NCBI RefSeq assembly: GCF_000767615.3
Contig: NZ_CP009553.3
Span: 124,001 to 188,000 of the forward strand
DNA from: Pandoraea pnomenusa
Lineage (GTDB): Bacteria > Pseudomonadota > Gammaproteobacteria > Burkholderiales > Burkholderiaceae
Direction of reading: 5' to 3'
Length of the DNA stretch: 64,000 bases
Position numbers and translations under genes: made by a program
The notes under the pieces: model-generated
Database searches by the model: none
What the model was told of the DNA's origin: nothing
Seen by the model: the letters and a program-made list of their open reading frames with translations, nothing else
Shown here: piece by piece, positions 44,420 through 50,040 of the stretch
Position numbering within the stretch: the stretch's first letter is position 1
How the letters are laid out: every line of letters starts with the position of its first letter

Positions 44420-45823
44420 ATGGCCGTTTCAGTTTTCGATTTGTTCAAGATCGGTATCGGACCGTCGAGTTCGCATACCGTCGGGCCCATGCGCGCCGCG
44501 CTGATGTTCGTTCAGGGACTGGAGCGCGACGGCCTGTTGCCCCAGGTGGCGTCGGTTCGCGCCGAGTTGTATGGCTCGCTGGGCGCGACCGGCAAGGGAC
44601 ACGGCACCGACAAGGGCGTGCTGCTCGGCTTCATGGGCGAAGCGCCCGATACGGTCGATCCGTCGACGATTGCCGCGCGGCTGGCCACGCTGCGCAAGTC
44701 GAAGGTGCTGTCGATTCTCGGTCGCCACGATGTACCGTTCGTCGAAAAGGAACACATGGTGTTCTATCGTCGCGAAGCGATGGCCGAGCACCCGAACGGC
44801 ATGAAATTCCATGCCTTCGACGGTGCGGGCAACACCTTGCGCGAAGGACGCTATCTGTCGGTCGGCGGTGGCTTCGTCGTGACGGCGGGCGCGTCGAACG
44901 CGCAGGTGCTCTCGGCGCACGATCAGCTGCCGTACCCGTTCCGCACGGGCAAGGAACTGCTCGAGATGTGCCGCGCCAGCGGCAAGACCATCGCCCAGTT
45001 GATGTGGGAGAACGAGAAGGTCTGGCACCAGGGCGATACGGCGGAAGCGGACATCCGTCGTGGGTTGCTCAATATCTGGCATGTGATGCAGTCGTGCGTG
45101 ACGCGCGGTTGCGGCATCGGCAACGACGAGGCCGACGGCGAACTGCCCGGGCCGCTCCATGTGCGGCGTCGCGCGCCGGAGTTGTACCGCCAGCTCACGC
45201 AGCGCGCGGAACGCACGCTGTCCGACCCGTTGTCGGTGATGGACTGGGTGAACCTGTACGCGATCGCCGTCAACGAAGAGAACGCGGCGGGCGGGCGTGT
45301 CGTGACGGCGCCGACGAACGGCGCGGCCGGCATCATCCCGTCGGTGCTTCACTACTACGACCGCTTCGTGCACGGCGCGAACGAGCAGGGCGTGATCGAT
45401 TTCCTGCTCACGGCGGGTGCCATCGGCATTCTCTACAAGCTCAACGCGTCGATTTCGGGCGCGGAGGTCGGCTGCCAGGGCGAGGTCGGCGTGGCCTGTT
45501 CGATGGCGGCAGGCGCGCTTGCGGCCGTGCTGGGCGGCACGGTCGAGCAGGTCGAGAATGCGGCCGAAATTGGCATGGAGCACAACCTCGGCCTGACGTG
45601 CGATCCGGTGGGCGGATTGGTGCAGATTCCATGCATCGAACGCAACGCCATGGCGTCGATCAAGGCCGTGAACGCCGCACGGATGGCGCTGCGCGGCGAT
45701 GGCGCTCACTATGTGTCGCTCGACTCCGTCATCAAGACGATGCGCGAGACGGGCGCCGACATGAAGACCAAGTACAAGGAGACGGCGCGCGGCGGATTGG
45801 CGGTGAATATCGTCGAGTGCTGA
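44420..45823 (+). CDS. sdaA: L-serine ammonia-lyase (iron-sulfur type)
   Basis: The ATG at 44420, with AGGAAAG before it, gives 467 residues. SdaA converts L-serine to pyruvate and ammonia with a [4Fe-4S] cluster. [20 protein letters not shown] and [10 protein letters not shown] open the beta domain, and [18 protein letters not shown] follows. The alpha domain has [40 protein letters not shown] and [20 protein letters not shown], with the cluster Cys residues. It follows gcvP across a terminator. The pair allows glycine to be used via serine and pyruvate. Confidence 0.96.
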
Positions 45824-45947
45824 CACGGCGCCACGTCGCGCACGTGTCGGTGAACGATGCGCGTGCGACGCACGGGCCGCGTGTGCGCGCCGTAAAAGAC
45901 GTTTCAGCTGTCGCGCCGTTGCCGGTCCTGCCGGTCAATCGAACACG

Positions 45948-45976
45948 CCTCACGGGAATCCCGTGGGGCCTTTTTT
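45948..45976 (+). terminator. Intrinsic terminator after sdaA
   Basis: CCTCACGGG (45948-45956) pairs with CCCGTGGGG (45960-45968, one G-T pair), followed by TTTTTT. The remaining sequence of the 313-bp gap 45824-46136 shows no gene. It separates sdaA from the PilV-like gene. Confidence 0.9.
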
Positions 45977-46136
45977 CGTCTTTGGGCGAGTGATTTCTGA
46001 TTTCGCGCGAACCCTTCGAAAGTTCCGGGCGTTTCCTAATCCCCGGTGTCGAGACGTCGTCGAGAATGGCAAGTTTTGACGACTTTGCTGTCACGCCCGA
46101 TGCGGCGCGAGGCGCTCAGACGAAAGGAGTTCGACC

Positions 46137-48275
46137 ATGCGAAAGCAACAATCCGGGATCTTCCTGATCTCGGCGGCGATTGCCGTCGCCGTGCTGGGGG
46201 TGATGATTTCCTTCTGGGGCGTGCATCAGGCAAGGCAGATGCGTACCGAAAAGGCGGAGCGCATGGGCGAAGCGCTGAAGCTCATGGGCGACAAGGTGCA
46301 GAGCTTCGTGGTGGAGCATCACAACGCCATCGTGGCGTTGCTGGGCCCATCGGCAAAGCCGTTCACGGTCCGGGGCGTCACCTTTGAAAGGCGCCAGGAT
46401 TGGCTCGGCCGTCCCAGCATCGACAATCTGACGGCGAGCAGGCTGCTCACGGCCACCAACGCCACCGGCATGGGCACGCGCCCGCCGGGAAGCCGAGGCG
46501 AATACGGCATTCACGTGTATCTCGAATGCGACAAGACCACAAATGTGTGCAACATCGAAACGCTCACCTACATCGACACACCGATCTACAAGACTTACGG
46601 CACCGCTCCCGACTGGGACGCCGCGGCGGTCGCCGTGCGCAAGATCGGCGCACTGGGCGGCATTCAGCACGACGGAGGTCAGGTGTTCCGGTTCCTCGAT
46701 TCATCCGGTCAAACCGGGACCGTCGCGAGCCCGCTCGGAAAGCCGGGACTCATCGCGGTGCGCGGGGGCTATTCGACCAGTGCGATGGACGTTTACGTCC
46801 GGCGCGATGGCTCGACGATGCGGGGACCGCTCGATTTCGAAGAGAGGGACGCGCAGGGCGGGAGGGTCAAGCGGCACGACATTGTCGGCGTGGGCAAACT
46901 CGACGCGGAGCGACTCAGTGGCGCATCGTTGACTGCCAGCGCGGCGACCGTCAGTGGCCCGCTCGTCGCGAACTCGGCGACGCTTCAGGGCCAGCTCGAC
47001 ATGGGGGGCAATGGAGCGAACCATAGCATCGTGGGCGCGCAGGATATCAGTGGCACCGGCACGTTACGTATGGGCGCCATGGAACTCACCGGCCCGGCGG
47101 GCGCGCAAAGCCTGGTCGTGGGAGGACCTGCGAACGTCGGCGCGCGGCTGAGCGTGGCGGGGGATACCGTGCTGGAAGGGAAGCTGAGCGCGAAGAACGG
47201 CGCGAAGCTCGACGGGAAGCTCGAAATGTCGGGCAATGACATCGTCAAGGCCGACAAGGTCGAGGCCGACCTGTTCCGCTCGGCGAAGGGCGTGGTCGAG
47301 CTCAACGGCGCCAAGCAGCAGGGCGAGGAGTGCCACGTCTGGGGATTGACGCGCGACGCCGACGGCCGGCTGCTTTCGTGCCAGCGCAGTCGGCCGGGCA
47401 GCAACACGTGGCATTGGAAACTCGCGAGCACCCCCGGCAGCGTGACGGATGTGCCGACCTACATCGTCAAGGAGATCGAAAAACTCGTCCGGGTCGACGA
47501 CCACTGGAAAGTCACGCGCTATTCGCTGACGCCGTCGCGTGCGGGGCTGAGGTTGGGATCGGCGCTCTACTTCTACGTGGCGTCCCAATCCGACGCCACG
47601 CTGCTCGCATGCGCGGTCACCAATGTGGGGCGCGGTGGCGCGTCGATCCGGCCCGGCGCCAGTCAGGGCGAGTACATCGTGACGCAGTCGCCACGCGGCA
47701 CCGAGCAACTGGTGTGCCTGTCGAAAGGGGCGGGAACGCCGTACGTGCGCGAGAACGCCTGGTTCTGGCGCGGGTGGCCGACGATCGATGTTCACGGTAG
47801 CGTCGTGAAGAGCGGCTTCTGGTCCGTGCGCGATTTCGTTTCCAAACTGCCATCGATTCATCGCGACGTTCGAAAGCCGGACAAGATCCTGAAGGACACC
47901 GACACGGGGTTTGCCCGCGAGTTGAAGCAGTTGTTCGACACGTTCGGTACGTGGGCATCCGCCGGCGATCTCAATGCGCCGATCGCGCAGGGTGGCATGG
48001 GCTTTTACCGCTATACGACCCGACACCTCGGTGGAACGTCCGCGGTGCTCGTCAAGAATCCGAATGGCCCGGTGTCCTGCAAGATCAGGTCGGACTTCGC
48101 GGGCGCCTTTCTCGATCATTCGAGCGATACGATCCGGGTCGGCACACGCGCGGCGCACACCGCAGGTCCGGGCAGAACGCTCGCGGTCGACGTGCAATGT
48201 GCCTTCTCGCGCGCCAGCGATCTTCACAACAGTTCTTTCACGCCGTGCAGTCCAGGCACCTGTCCGCTTCCCTGA
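46137..48275 (+). CDS. PilV/shufflon-type adhesin-like protein
   Basis: This 712-residue protein has AAAGGAG before its ATG. It starts MRKQQSGIFLISAAIAVAVL, a prepilin-like or membrane-anchor N-terminus without the usual Glu5, followed by a charged helix. The N-terminal 430 residues resemble the constant region of R64-type PilV tip adhesins: LIAVRGGYSTSAMDVYVRRD and GSTMRGPL, then Gly-rich beta-repeat segments, then ECHVWGLTRDADGRLLSCQ. The C-terminal 270 residues have no family I recognise and end in a Cys-rich tail. No pil genes, recombinase or shufflon repeats are nearby. It is bounded by terminators on both sides, so it is its own transcription unit. Confidence 0.75.
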   Translation: MRKQQSGIFLISAAIAVAVLGVMISFWGVHQARQMRTEKAERMGEALKLMGDKVQSFVVEHHNAIVALLGPSAKPFTVRGVTFERRQDWLGRPSIDNLTASRLLTATNATGMGTRPPGSRGEYGIHVYLECDKTTNVCNIETLTYIDTPIYKTYGTAPDWDAAAVAVRKIGALGGIQHDGGQVFRFLDSSGQTGTVASPLGKPGLIAVRGGYSTSAMDVYVRRDGSTMRGPLDFEERDAQGGRVKRHDIVGVGKLDAERLSGASLTASAATVSGPLVANSATLQGQLDMGGNGANHSIVGAQDISGTGTLRMGAMELTGPAGAQSLVVGGPANVGARLSVAGDTVLEGKLSAKNGAKLDGKLEMSGNDIVKADKVEADLFRSAKGVVELNGAKQQGEECHVWGLTRDADGRLLSCQRSRPGSNTWHWKLASTPGSVTDVPTYIVKEIEKLVRVDDHWKVTRYSLTPSRAGLRLGSALYFYVASQSDATLLACAVTNVGRGGASIRPGASQGEYIVTQSPRGTEQLVCLSKGAGTPYVRENAWFWRGWPTIDVHGSVVKSGFWSVRDFVSKLPSIHRDVRKPDKILKDTDTGFARELKQLFDTFGTWASAGDLNAPIAQGGMGFYRYTTRHLGGTSAVLVKNPNGPVSCKIRSDFAGAFLDHSSDTIRVGTRAAHTAGPGRTLAVDVQCAFSRASDLHNSSFTPCSPGTCPLP

Positions 48276-48451: not shown

Positions 48452-48483
48452 AGCCGCCCGGCGATCGCCGAGCGGCTTTTTTT
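48452..48483 (+). terminator. Intrinsic terminator after the PilV-like gene
   Basis: AGCCGC (48452-48457) pairs with GCGGCT (48472-48477) and an inner GGCG pairs with CGCC, followed by a run of seven T. It lies in the 349-bp gap 48276-48624, which holds no other feature that I can support. Confidence 0.88.
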
Positions 48484-48624
48484 ATTGGCGCGCGTCCGAA
48501 CCTGCATAGGAATCGACGCAAAGTGCAGCGGCAAACTGTCGCAATGGCCCAATCCTTGAGATTCTCCGTCCCTCGCCTCTCATTTCAGAGGGGTGATGCA
48601 CGATTGCGACAGGAGACGACTGAC

Positions 48625-50040
48625 ATGGAAAGCTGGGTTAAATCGATGGTGGATGCCGTCGGCGGGGTGCTGTCGGGCTACCCCCTGGTGATCGCCTTGC
48701 TCGGCGCGGGCCTTTACTTCACCGTGCGGTTCGGCGGCATACAGATCCGGGCGTTCGCGCATAGCGTTCGCCTGTTGCGAACCTCGGGTGACATTTCCGG
48801 CATATCGCCGTTTCAGGCATTCGCCACGGGGCTGGCCAGCCGCGTCGGCACCGGCAATATCGCGGGCGTGGCCGTGGCGCTGACCATCGGCGGTCCGGGC
48901 GCCATCTTCTGGATGTGGATGACGGCATTGCTTGGCATGGCGTCGGCCTTTGTCGAATCGACGCTTGCGCAGATCTTCAAGGTTGCGCATCGGGACAACA
49001 CGTTCCGTGGTGGCCCCGCCTACTACATTCAGCTCGGTCTCGGCTCACGCAAGTTCGGCGTCGTTTTCGCCGTCGCGCTGTTGTTCACGTTTGGCTTCGC
49101 CCTCAACTCGGTGCAATCGCACTCCATCGCGGAGGCGCTCGAAGCGTCGTTCGGCTGGGAGCGGCAGTGGATCGGCATCGCGTTGGTCCTGCTGACCGCG
49201 CCGATCATCTATGGGGGTGTGCGGCGTGTGGCGCGCGTGGCCCAATGGATCGTTCCGGTCATGGCGGTAGCGTATCTCGGGCTTGCGGTGTTCGTTTGCC
49301 TCGCGAATCTGCACGAGTTTCCCGGCATGATCGCGTTGATCTGGCGCCATGCCTTCGGGCTGGAGCCCGCGGCGGGTGGTATCGCCGGGTATGCCGTCGG
49401 TCAGGCGGTGCTGATGGGGGTGAAGCGGGGGCTCTTCTCCAACGAGGCCGGCATGGGCAGTGCGCCAAACGCGGCGGCGGTCGCCACCACGCGGCATCCG
49501 GTTCAGCAAGGGCTCATGCAGATGCTCGGCGTGTGCTTCGACACCATCGTCGTTTGCTCGGCGACGGCATTCATGATCCTGCTCTCGGGAGAGTTCATGC
49601 CCGGCGCGGCGCCGGAAGGCGCGGTGCTCACACAGCGCGCGCTGGCCGCGCACTTCGGCGACTGGGCGGTGACCTTCACCGGCCTGACGGTATTCTTCCT
49701 GGCGTATTCCAGCGTGCTCGGCAACTACGCGTACGCGGAAGTGAACATGGACTACATGACGCAGCGACGCTGGTGCCTGCATGTCTTTCGAGCGCTGGTA
49801 CTGGCGGCGGTGATGCTCGGTTCCATCGCGAGCCTGCCGCTGGTGTGGAGTTTCGCCGACGTCGGTACGGCGTTGATGGCGTTCATCAACCTGATCGCCA
49901 TTGCCTTGCTGACCCGATACGCGGTGCTCGCATGGCATGACTATCGGAAACAGCGCAAAGCCGGTGTCGCCGAACCGGTATTCACGCGCGACGTGCTGCC
50001 ACCCGAGTTGCGCGAACGCCTGCCGAAGGACGTCTGGTAA
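48625..50040 (+). CDS. AgcS-type alanine/glycine:cation symporter
   Basis: The ATG at 48625, preceded by AGGAGA, gives 471 residues. This is a multi-pass inner-membrane protein that imports alanine, glycine or a related amino acid with sodium or protons. Family signatures include GLYFTVRFGGIQIRAFAHSV, then FQAFATGLASRVGTGNIAGV, GGPGAIFWMWMTALLGMASA, then FRGGPAYYIQ and KRGLFSNEAGMGSAPNAAAV. About ten hydrophobic helices are visible. It stands alone but sits near the glycine and serine catabolic genes. Confidence 0.93.
   Translation: MESWVKSMVDAVGGVLSGYPLVIALLGAGLYFTVRFGGIQIRAFAHSVRLLRTSGDISGISPFQAFATGLASRVGTGNIAGVAVALTIGGPGAIFWMWMTALLGMASAFVESTLAQIFKVAHRDNTFRGGPAYYIQLGLGSRKFGVVFAVALLFTFGFALNSVQSHSIAEALEASFGWERQWIGIALVLLTAPIIYGGVRRVARVAQWIVPVMAVAYLGLAVFVCLANLHEFPGMIALIWRHAFGLEPAAGGIAGYAVGQAVLMGVKRGLFSNEAGMGSAPNAAAVATTRHPVQQGLMQMLGVCFDTIVVCSATAFMILLSGEFMPGAAPEGAVLTQRALAAHFGDWAVTFTGLTVFFLAYSSVLGNYAYAEVNMDYMTQRRWCLHVFRALVLAAVMLGSIASLPLVWSFADVGTALMAFINLIAIALLTRYAVLAWHDYRKQRKAGVAEPVFTRDVLPPELRERLPKDVW

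Follow-up and report, generated by a model that had tools for sequence, protein, structure and literature searches.

The shufflon PilV proteins of IncI plasmids (R64, TP114; Pfam PF04917) have a prepilin-like N-terminus and a constant region that ends in C..G..RD..G..LSCQ. To our knowledge, no shufflon accompanies PilV2 of the Pseudomonas island PAPI-1. In the accessible part of their descriptions, the IncI proteins have an exchangeable C-terminal domain and type IVb pil partners (PMC9045228), and PilV2 is a type IVb minor pilin with a lipopolysaccharide-binding C-terminal segment, and its gene is one of ten in the pil cluster of a transferable island that depends on PilV2 for its transfer (PMC5297154). 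TcpB and CofB are described, in the available portion of the source, as large single minor pilins in which a pilin domain is joined to an extra C-terminal region, with a proposed tip site and with Glu5 present; the same portion gives large size, lack of Glu5, and a position at the 3' end of the cluster as the signature of a first-subunit minor pilin (PMC5207764).

Here we describe a pilV-like gene in a stretch of 64,000 nucleotides from Pandoraea pnomenusa (contig NZ_CP009553.3, positions 124,001 to 188,000; hereafter the window) that resembles each of these systems in part. It shares with IncI pilV the four features named above, but the Pandoraea gene is chromosomal and unlinked to the pil operon, shows no shufflon repeats, and encodes a protein that lacks Glu5. 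Several fixed copies, not one shuffled gene, are present in 13 of 28 Pandoraea genomes, and the C-terminal part of the Pandoraea proteins spans 124–301 aa (one 20-aa stub apart) versus 69–113 residues in TP114, as given in the accessible text (PMC9045228). The gene differs from that of PilV2 in lying outside the pil cluster, and its product differs from TcpB and CofB in that Glu5 is absent in 45 of 45 Pandoraea copies. No paper on PilV in Pandoraea was found in the open-licence literature, a scope outside which most subscription journals fall.

Results

A pilV-like gene stands between sdaA and agcS in P. pnomenusa

The pilV-like gene (46137–48275, forward strand) starts with ATG, encodes 712 aa, is apparently monocistronic, and was recognized from its genus-wide homologues and its profile match to plasmid PilV. 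A Shine-Dalgarno-like AAAGGAG, read directly in the sequence, lies 7 nt before the ATG (46123–46129, forward strand). The neighboring genes, both on the forward strand and both used below as syntenic anchors, are sdaA upstream (serine dehydratase, 44420–45823; Pfam SDH_alpha and SDH_beta) and an agcS-type sodium:alanine symporter gene downstream (48625–50040; Pfam Na_Ala_symp). A terminator scan placed one terminator after sdaA (45947–45979, forward strand, made up of 45947–45969 plus a T-run). The element after the pilV-like gene (48452–48484, forward strand) is absent from the list given by that scan and was recognized as a 16-nt, 94% palindrome at 48452–48477 followed by a T-run.

These data confirm the open reading frame that the initial annotation had described, with both of its motifs (RGGYSTSAMDVYVRRDGST and ECHVWGLTRDADGRLLSCQ) in the translation, as well as the bounding terminators at both ends and, by Pfam, the identity of the two neighbors. 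The further statement that the gene is alone holds in the window genome; 13 of the 28 positive genomes have two to four copies in the loci read. The composition of the window gene is host-like, with a GC3 of 0.81 versus 0.83–0.88 in five neighbors. By Pfam, the four nearest window genes tested encode a serine dehydratase, an alanine symporter, a periplasmic binding protein, and a solute symporter, and none of these four is an Rci-type recombinase.

The encoded protein has a modular architecture. Residues 1–7 (46137–46157, forward strand, as are all parts of the gene), MRKQQSG, form a prepilin-type leader that ends in Gly and is followed by a hydrophobic helix with no Glu at +5. Met1, Arg2, Gln5, and Gly7 of this leader are invariant in 25 aligned rows of the family. 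Position +5 is occupied by Ser or Gly in 43 of 45 copies and by Glu in none; the remaining two, tabulated as F when numbered from an earlier leader Gly, have Ser if the Gly of QSG is taken as the reference. Residues 1–212 (46137–46772) are predicted to be pilin-like, with a long N-terminal helix (residues 3–60) plus an alpha/beta globular domain, and residues 213–390 (46773–47306) make up a repetitive "NI.G.G.L.M" shaft, as judged from the alignment of the 30 family proteins and a low-confidence model. The constant region ends with residues 391–416 (47307–47384), which were delimited by profile comparisons and contain ECHVWGLTRDADGRLLSCQ. Residues 417–712 (47385–48272) form a C-terminal domain (group 0 of the classification below) with six cysteines and two predicted beta-sandwich-like lobes (residues 450–588 and 615–690). 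Fold searches with the structure model gave weak matches for both the N- and C-terminal ends, and the best VIA-align row, again a weak fold match, was a type II pseudopilus model. The number of cysteines in the C-terminal part is even in 40 of 40 copies (in one of these, the stub, it is trivially 0), which fits exported, disulfide-bonded domains.

The constant region is a distant relative of plasmid PilV

The first ~430 residues had been read as PilV-type, and profile comparisons bear this out. When 30 proteins of the Pandoraea family were compared with 21 PilV proteins by hhalign, the profiles matched with a probability of 98 over 326 columns that cover window residues 1–431 (E 2.4e-13, a value from a one-to-one comparison). 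The PilV profile was built from 20 proteins found in one search with a Citrobacter PilV, the named ones being enterobacterial, and one E. coli plasmid PilV that is 22% identical to the Citrobacter protein. With the single Citrobacter PilV, the match was confined to the end of the constant region (E 2.5e-8). The closest named homologues found outside the genus are encoded in type IVb pil clusters on plasmids of Vogesella (NZ_CP085531) and Chromobacterium (NZ_CP029496). These PilV-like proteins also lack Glu5; the Chromobacterium protein (hypothetical/PilV-like) aligns with the Pandoraea family from its first residue to the SCQ motif and with window residues 1–418 at E 5.4e-40.

Searches with the single sequence were negative: the window protein gave no match at E 1 in Pfam-A, no match at E 1 to any PDB chain, and in NCBIfam one 12-bit chance match far below the cut-off. 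The 27.5-bit cut-off of PF04917 (Shufflon_N) was likewise unmet by a relative, P0024 (17.0 bits), and by the Chromobacterium plasmid homologue (23.7 bits). The likeness to PilV is thus distant, as Pfam-A fails on the single sequence and profile-profile comparison is needed, and the family match that the initial annotation had anticipated is present between profiles but below the cut-off in single-sequence Pfam searches. The window protein is a PilV homologue; it is not a shufflon PilV, nor, by the cut-off, a member of PF04917.

The 30 family proteins, one of them the window's own, came from a protein search in which all named hits were from Pandoraea, and several of them are already labeled as shufflon or PilV-type in their source. 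In their alignment the first ~430 residues are common, apart from truncated starts, and the remainder falls into different types. A search with residues 425–712 returned the window protein itself, P0005 (P. anhela), and P0002 only; it was not exhaustive, since the known relatives P0003 and P0004 were missed.

The same chromosome encodes a type IVb pil cluster

The single-contig chromosome that carries the window also has a pil cluster on the minus strand at about 5,183,390–5,192,003. Read down from 5,192,003, it encodes PilS, TcpQ, a PilN-type secretin, PAP_PilO, a PilP-sized protein, a PilQ-type ATPase, a PilR-type T2SSF protein, and an A24 prepilin peptidase. TcpQ, the secretin, PAP_PilO, T2SSF, and the A24 peptidase were confirmed by Pfam, a T2SSE ATPase lies near PilS, and the PilP-sized protein has no Pfam match. 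The cluster is followed on the opposite strand by a gene for a GMC oxidoreductase. PilS, the one PilS-type pilin in the chromosome, has 201 aa (versus 712 aa in the window protein) and a leader ...RQRG|VTLVE in which Glu5 is present. The distance from the pilV-like gene to the cluster is 372 kb in this genome and 372–458 kb in the 13 genomes for which it was computed.

The pil clusters of all 28 positive Pandoraea genomes share one content and order of eight genes, S-TcpQ-N-O-P-Q-R-peptidase; overlaps between their listed reading frames are due to extended starts. Among their open reading frames of at least 100 aa, none was matched by a PilV N-terminal model up to E 10, and when nine PilV proteins from outside the genus were compared with the 28 clusters at E 1, the sole match was a weak one between the G065 protein and a single PilS (E 0.0057).

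The pilV-like profile matches 28 of 32 Pandoraea genomes, and PilO matches the same 28; PilS matches these 28 plus one genome, G023, at 29% identity (E 3.9e-4). The pilV-like gene and PilO are both missing from G018, G023, G025, and G030. In a tree of SdaA from 27 of the 32 genomes (the loci used for G015, G017, G020, G021, and G022 contained no full sdaA), G023, G025, and G030 form one clade (100/100) and G018, whose genome is 1.2 Mb, is a long branch. Gene presence needs two changes on this tree at face value, and the matched absence may represent one or two events, so that a Fisher p of 2.8e-5 overstates independence. T2SSE matches over the cut-off number nine in G023, five each in G025 and G030, and none in G018. 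The retention of other T2SSE systems in three genomes that lack the gene indicates that the pilV-like gene goes with the type IVb cluster specifically and not with T2SSE systems at large. Three T2SSE-type ATPase matches in G023 lie within 20 kb (C37, 40086–59541) and possibly belong to another conjugative or pilus system. The earlier suggestion that the gene might serve a pilus encoded elsewhere is thus supported by a pilV-less type IVb cluster in its own genome and by matched presence and absence over 32 genomes.

pilV is the last recognized gene of nine pil clusters outside Pandoraea

Among 299 Burkholderiaceae genomes, the pilV profile matched 55 and PilO 42; outside Pandoraea these numbers were 27 and 14. 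Six of the outside genomes have both, on the same contig and less than 8 kb apart in G032, G059, G114, G192, and G255 and on different contigs in G296. Nine outside clusters were read: five chosen by the proximity of pilO and pilV on one contig; three on plasmids (of Vogesella and Chromobacterium, and pMOL28 of Cupriavidus) chosen by their pilV match; and one, in G065, chosen by PilO. The pilV-like gene is the last recognized gene in nine of nine (weakest E 1.3e-6, in G032), a result that shows the linked layout, not its frequency, since eight of the nine were picked with a pilV match in hand. In G065, whose PilO match is the best outside the genus (35% identity), the gene order is that of Pandoraea, S-TcpQ-N-O-P-Q-R, with pilV (E 7.3e-15) immediately after it. 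The pilV of G065 was missed in the 299-genome search, which can therefore overlook divergent pilV genes; the Pandoraea clusters are covered despite this risk by the direct check of their open reading frames. Based on the gene orders compared, the simplest reading is that pilV left its 3' place in the pil operon in Pandoraea.

No shufflon-like repeats are seen at the Pandoraea loci examined

On the Vogesella and Chromobacterium plasmids, the PilV-like open reading frame, the last recognized in its pil cluster, stops at or soon after SCQSG, and repeats on the SCQSG codons in both orientations follow downstream, and then an integrase. These repeats and the integrase indicate a shufflon layout, and the two regions (Vogesella, L031, 12900–17200; Chromobacterium, L032, 8900–10900) are apparent non-enterobacterial shufflons, with several inverted copies of TTG(T/C)CAATCCGGT and a site-specific integrase downstream. 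The Vogesella repeat region contains an IS5-family transposase.

Unlike these plasmids, the window has no inverted repeat pair at the junction of constant and variable regions in a repeat search. In five multi-copy Pandoraea arrays, inverted pairs of at least 16 nt number 0, 1, 7, 1, and 2; in two arrays the longest such pair is a terminator stem, and none of the pairs listed (five of the seven in one array) looks like a repeat on the SCQ codons. At 29 junctions in 18 loci, the best inverted matches have 4–7 mismatches of 19 (5 in the window), versus several inverted matches at 2–3 mismatches in the Vogesella control and 4–5, in an imperfect register, in the Chromobacterium control. The latter value means that the mismatch test alone discriminates poorly. 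The proposal of a fixed binding domain fits the lack of shufflon-like inverted repeats and of a recombinase among the adjacent window genes.

Pandoraea genomes carry one to four copies, which differ in their C-terminal domains

The loci fetched from the 28 genomes contain 45 pilV-like copies, one to four per genome (15 genomes with one and 13 with more), without counting partial copies of G026 on contig C167 and at the end of C85. Most lie around sdaA-livK-putA. A survey of relatives for the sdaA-pilV-agcS order found the place kept in 22 of 28 genomes, in which at least one copy follows sdaA and precedes livK (in G008 and G026 the contig ends after the copy, with the livK side unseen). Copies beyond putP occur in G015, G016, G017, G020, and G022, with an open reading frame of 1308–1311 aa between putP and the copy in G016, G020, and G022 that is PutA by Pfam in G022. 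G021 has one copy in each place, on the sdaA side and on the putP side. G016 (L192) has an empty site, with agcS immediately next to sdaA, and the only copy read is on the putP side. The copy of G028 is 3.9 kb beyond sdaA, and a gene for a Fic/DOC-family protein (L048, 2975–4327) lies between them.

The C-terminal parts were typed in 40 of the 45 copies, leaving out five in which the pattern used found no SCQ-type motif. A loose cut-off chained 39 of the 40 into one group and was dropped for a rule of 70% coverage, which gave 13 groups, seven with 3–7 members and six single; the window copy belongs to group 0 (seven members). By profile comparison, with one-to-one E-values, groups 0 and 2 match over 231 columns (probability 94), 5 and 6 over 207 (probability 96), 1 and 3 over 97 (probability 99), and 5 and 10 over 75 (probability 99), and group 0 has short stretches in common with groups 3, 7, 9, and 10. 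On this sequence evidence the groups are not all unrelated, and some are distant relatives.

A few pairs of copies show domain exchange. Copy 8369 of G010 and the L018 copy of G013 are 80–97% identical through residue 240, 65% in residues 241–280, 35–50% in 281–400, and 22–27% beyond 440. Within a single genome, G024, the L019 and 7881 copies are 57–75% identical in residues 281–400 and 20–27% beyond 440. The L021 copy of G008 diverges from G024 7881 after the motif and ends 20 residues on; it may be broken. The 13 groups and these pairs indicate a C-terminal domain after the SCQ motif that is exchangeable.

Relatives of the window gene are under purifying selection. In six ortholog pairs, none of which includes the window copy, the N and C parts were compared apart, and dN was smaller than dS in 12 of 12 comparisons (dN/dS 0.07–0.42). 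Two copies of 309 aa, on the livK side of agcS in G013 (L038, 7032–7991) and G024 (L037, 4983–5942), have the N-terminal part only and are either decaying or a short form. A detached C-terminal-type fragment with an internal stop lies between sdaA and the intact copy in G014 (C6, 130559–130855) and is perhaps a remnant of another tip gene.

Discussion

The window gene most likely encodes a PilV-type minor pilin, and putative tip adhesin, of the organism's own chromosomal type IVb pilus (pilS-tcpQ-pilN-pilO-pilP-pilQ-pilR-prepilin peptidase). Its 712 aa, its missing Glu5, and the 3' end place of pilV in clusters outside the genus match the first-subunit minor pilin signature set out in the available portion of PMC5207764. 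Lack of Glu5 is no hallmark of PilV, since the plasmid PilV consensus keeps this residue and the tip-sited TcpB and CofB have it too.

A former PilV that joins no pilus and reaches the surface by another export route would explain why the gene is unlinked to pil genes and sits between its own terminators, and why Ser or Gly takes the place of Glu at position +5. Such a stand-alone surface protein, which the initial annotation had offered alongside a pilus partner, is the unlikely member of that pair: the prepilin-type leader is kept, down to the invariant Gly7, the gene and the pil cluster occur together in 28 of 32 genomes, and those clusters have no other recognizable pilV. Membership in a different filament of the type II secretion superfamily, as a tip or minor subunit of a type IVa pilus or of type II secretion, would suit the further T2SSE systems of the genome and the pseudopilus model in the best VIA-align row, and a large protein with no Glu5 recalls the GspK-type subunits mentioned in the available text of PMC5207764. 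The homology is, however, to PilV of type IVb clusters, and the three genomes that have other T2SSE ATPases without such a cluster are also without the gene, which makes this assignment very improbable.

In favor of passive debris of a conjugative plasmid or integrative element with a shufflon PilV are the decay of some copies (the 309-aa copies of G013 and G024, the G008 copy with its stop 20 residues past the motif, and the G014 fragment) and the plasmid location of the closest homologues that have a shufflon layout. We nonetheless regard such a relic as very unlikely, given purifying selection in six ortholog pairs, the host-like composition of the window gene, its place conserved in 22 of 28 genomes, and adjacent window genes with metabolic or transport functions. 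The word "captured" is less apt for this adhesin: synteny in 22 of 28 genomes, host-like composition, and the gene's persistence as the last recognized one in clusters outside the genus suggest that the pilus's own tip gene has moved and expanded. Our best reading is that the Pandoraea set consists of relocated, shufflon-free type IVb tip minor pilins under purifying selection.

For the window protein as a minor pilin of the type IVb pilus, we infer cleavage, a tip position, use by that pilus, and ligand binding. The prepilin peptidase of the pil cluster would cleave MRKQQSG|I, and the protein would then pack through its long N-terminal helix at the tip of the PilS filament, where it would form the first subunit, a position that the lack of Glu5 suits. 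The repetitive shaft would project the C-terminal beta domain, which is probably disulfide-bonded and where a surface ligand would be bound; by analogy with plasmid PilV, this ligand could be a lipopolysaccharide glycan. In the history that we propose, pilV would have left its usual 3' place in the operon, settled around sdaA-livK-putA, and been duplicated there, and its binding ends would have diversified as separate fixed genes and not via an invertible shufflon.

More tentatively, Pandoraea may have swapped an invertible shufflon for a dispersed repertoire of tip adhesins in one chromosomal neighborhood, with binding domains traded by ordinary recombination; the recombination joints seen so far are two, at about residue 240–280 and just after the SCQ motif. 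In this way a single conserved type IVb pilus might be directed to partners or hosts that differ from species to species, and perhaps also according to which copy a cell uses. What a pilus adheres to is determined by its tip adhesin, and here the tip gene lies apart from its machine across the positive genomes of the genus, which suggests why such genes are listed as hypothetical or stray "shufflon" proteins. With a binding end that has diversified without a visible DNA-inversion system, the genus offers a natural comparison of shuffled and fixed tip repertoires.
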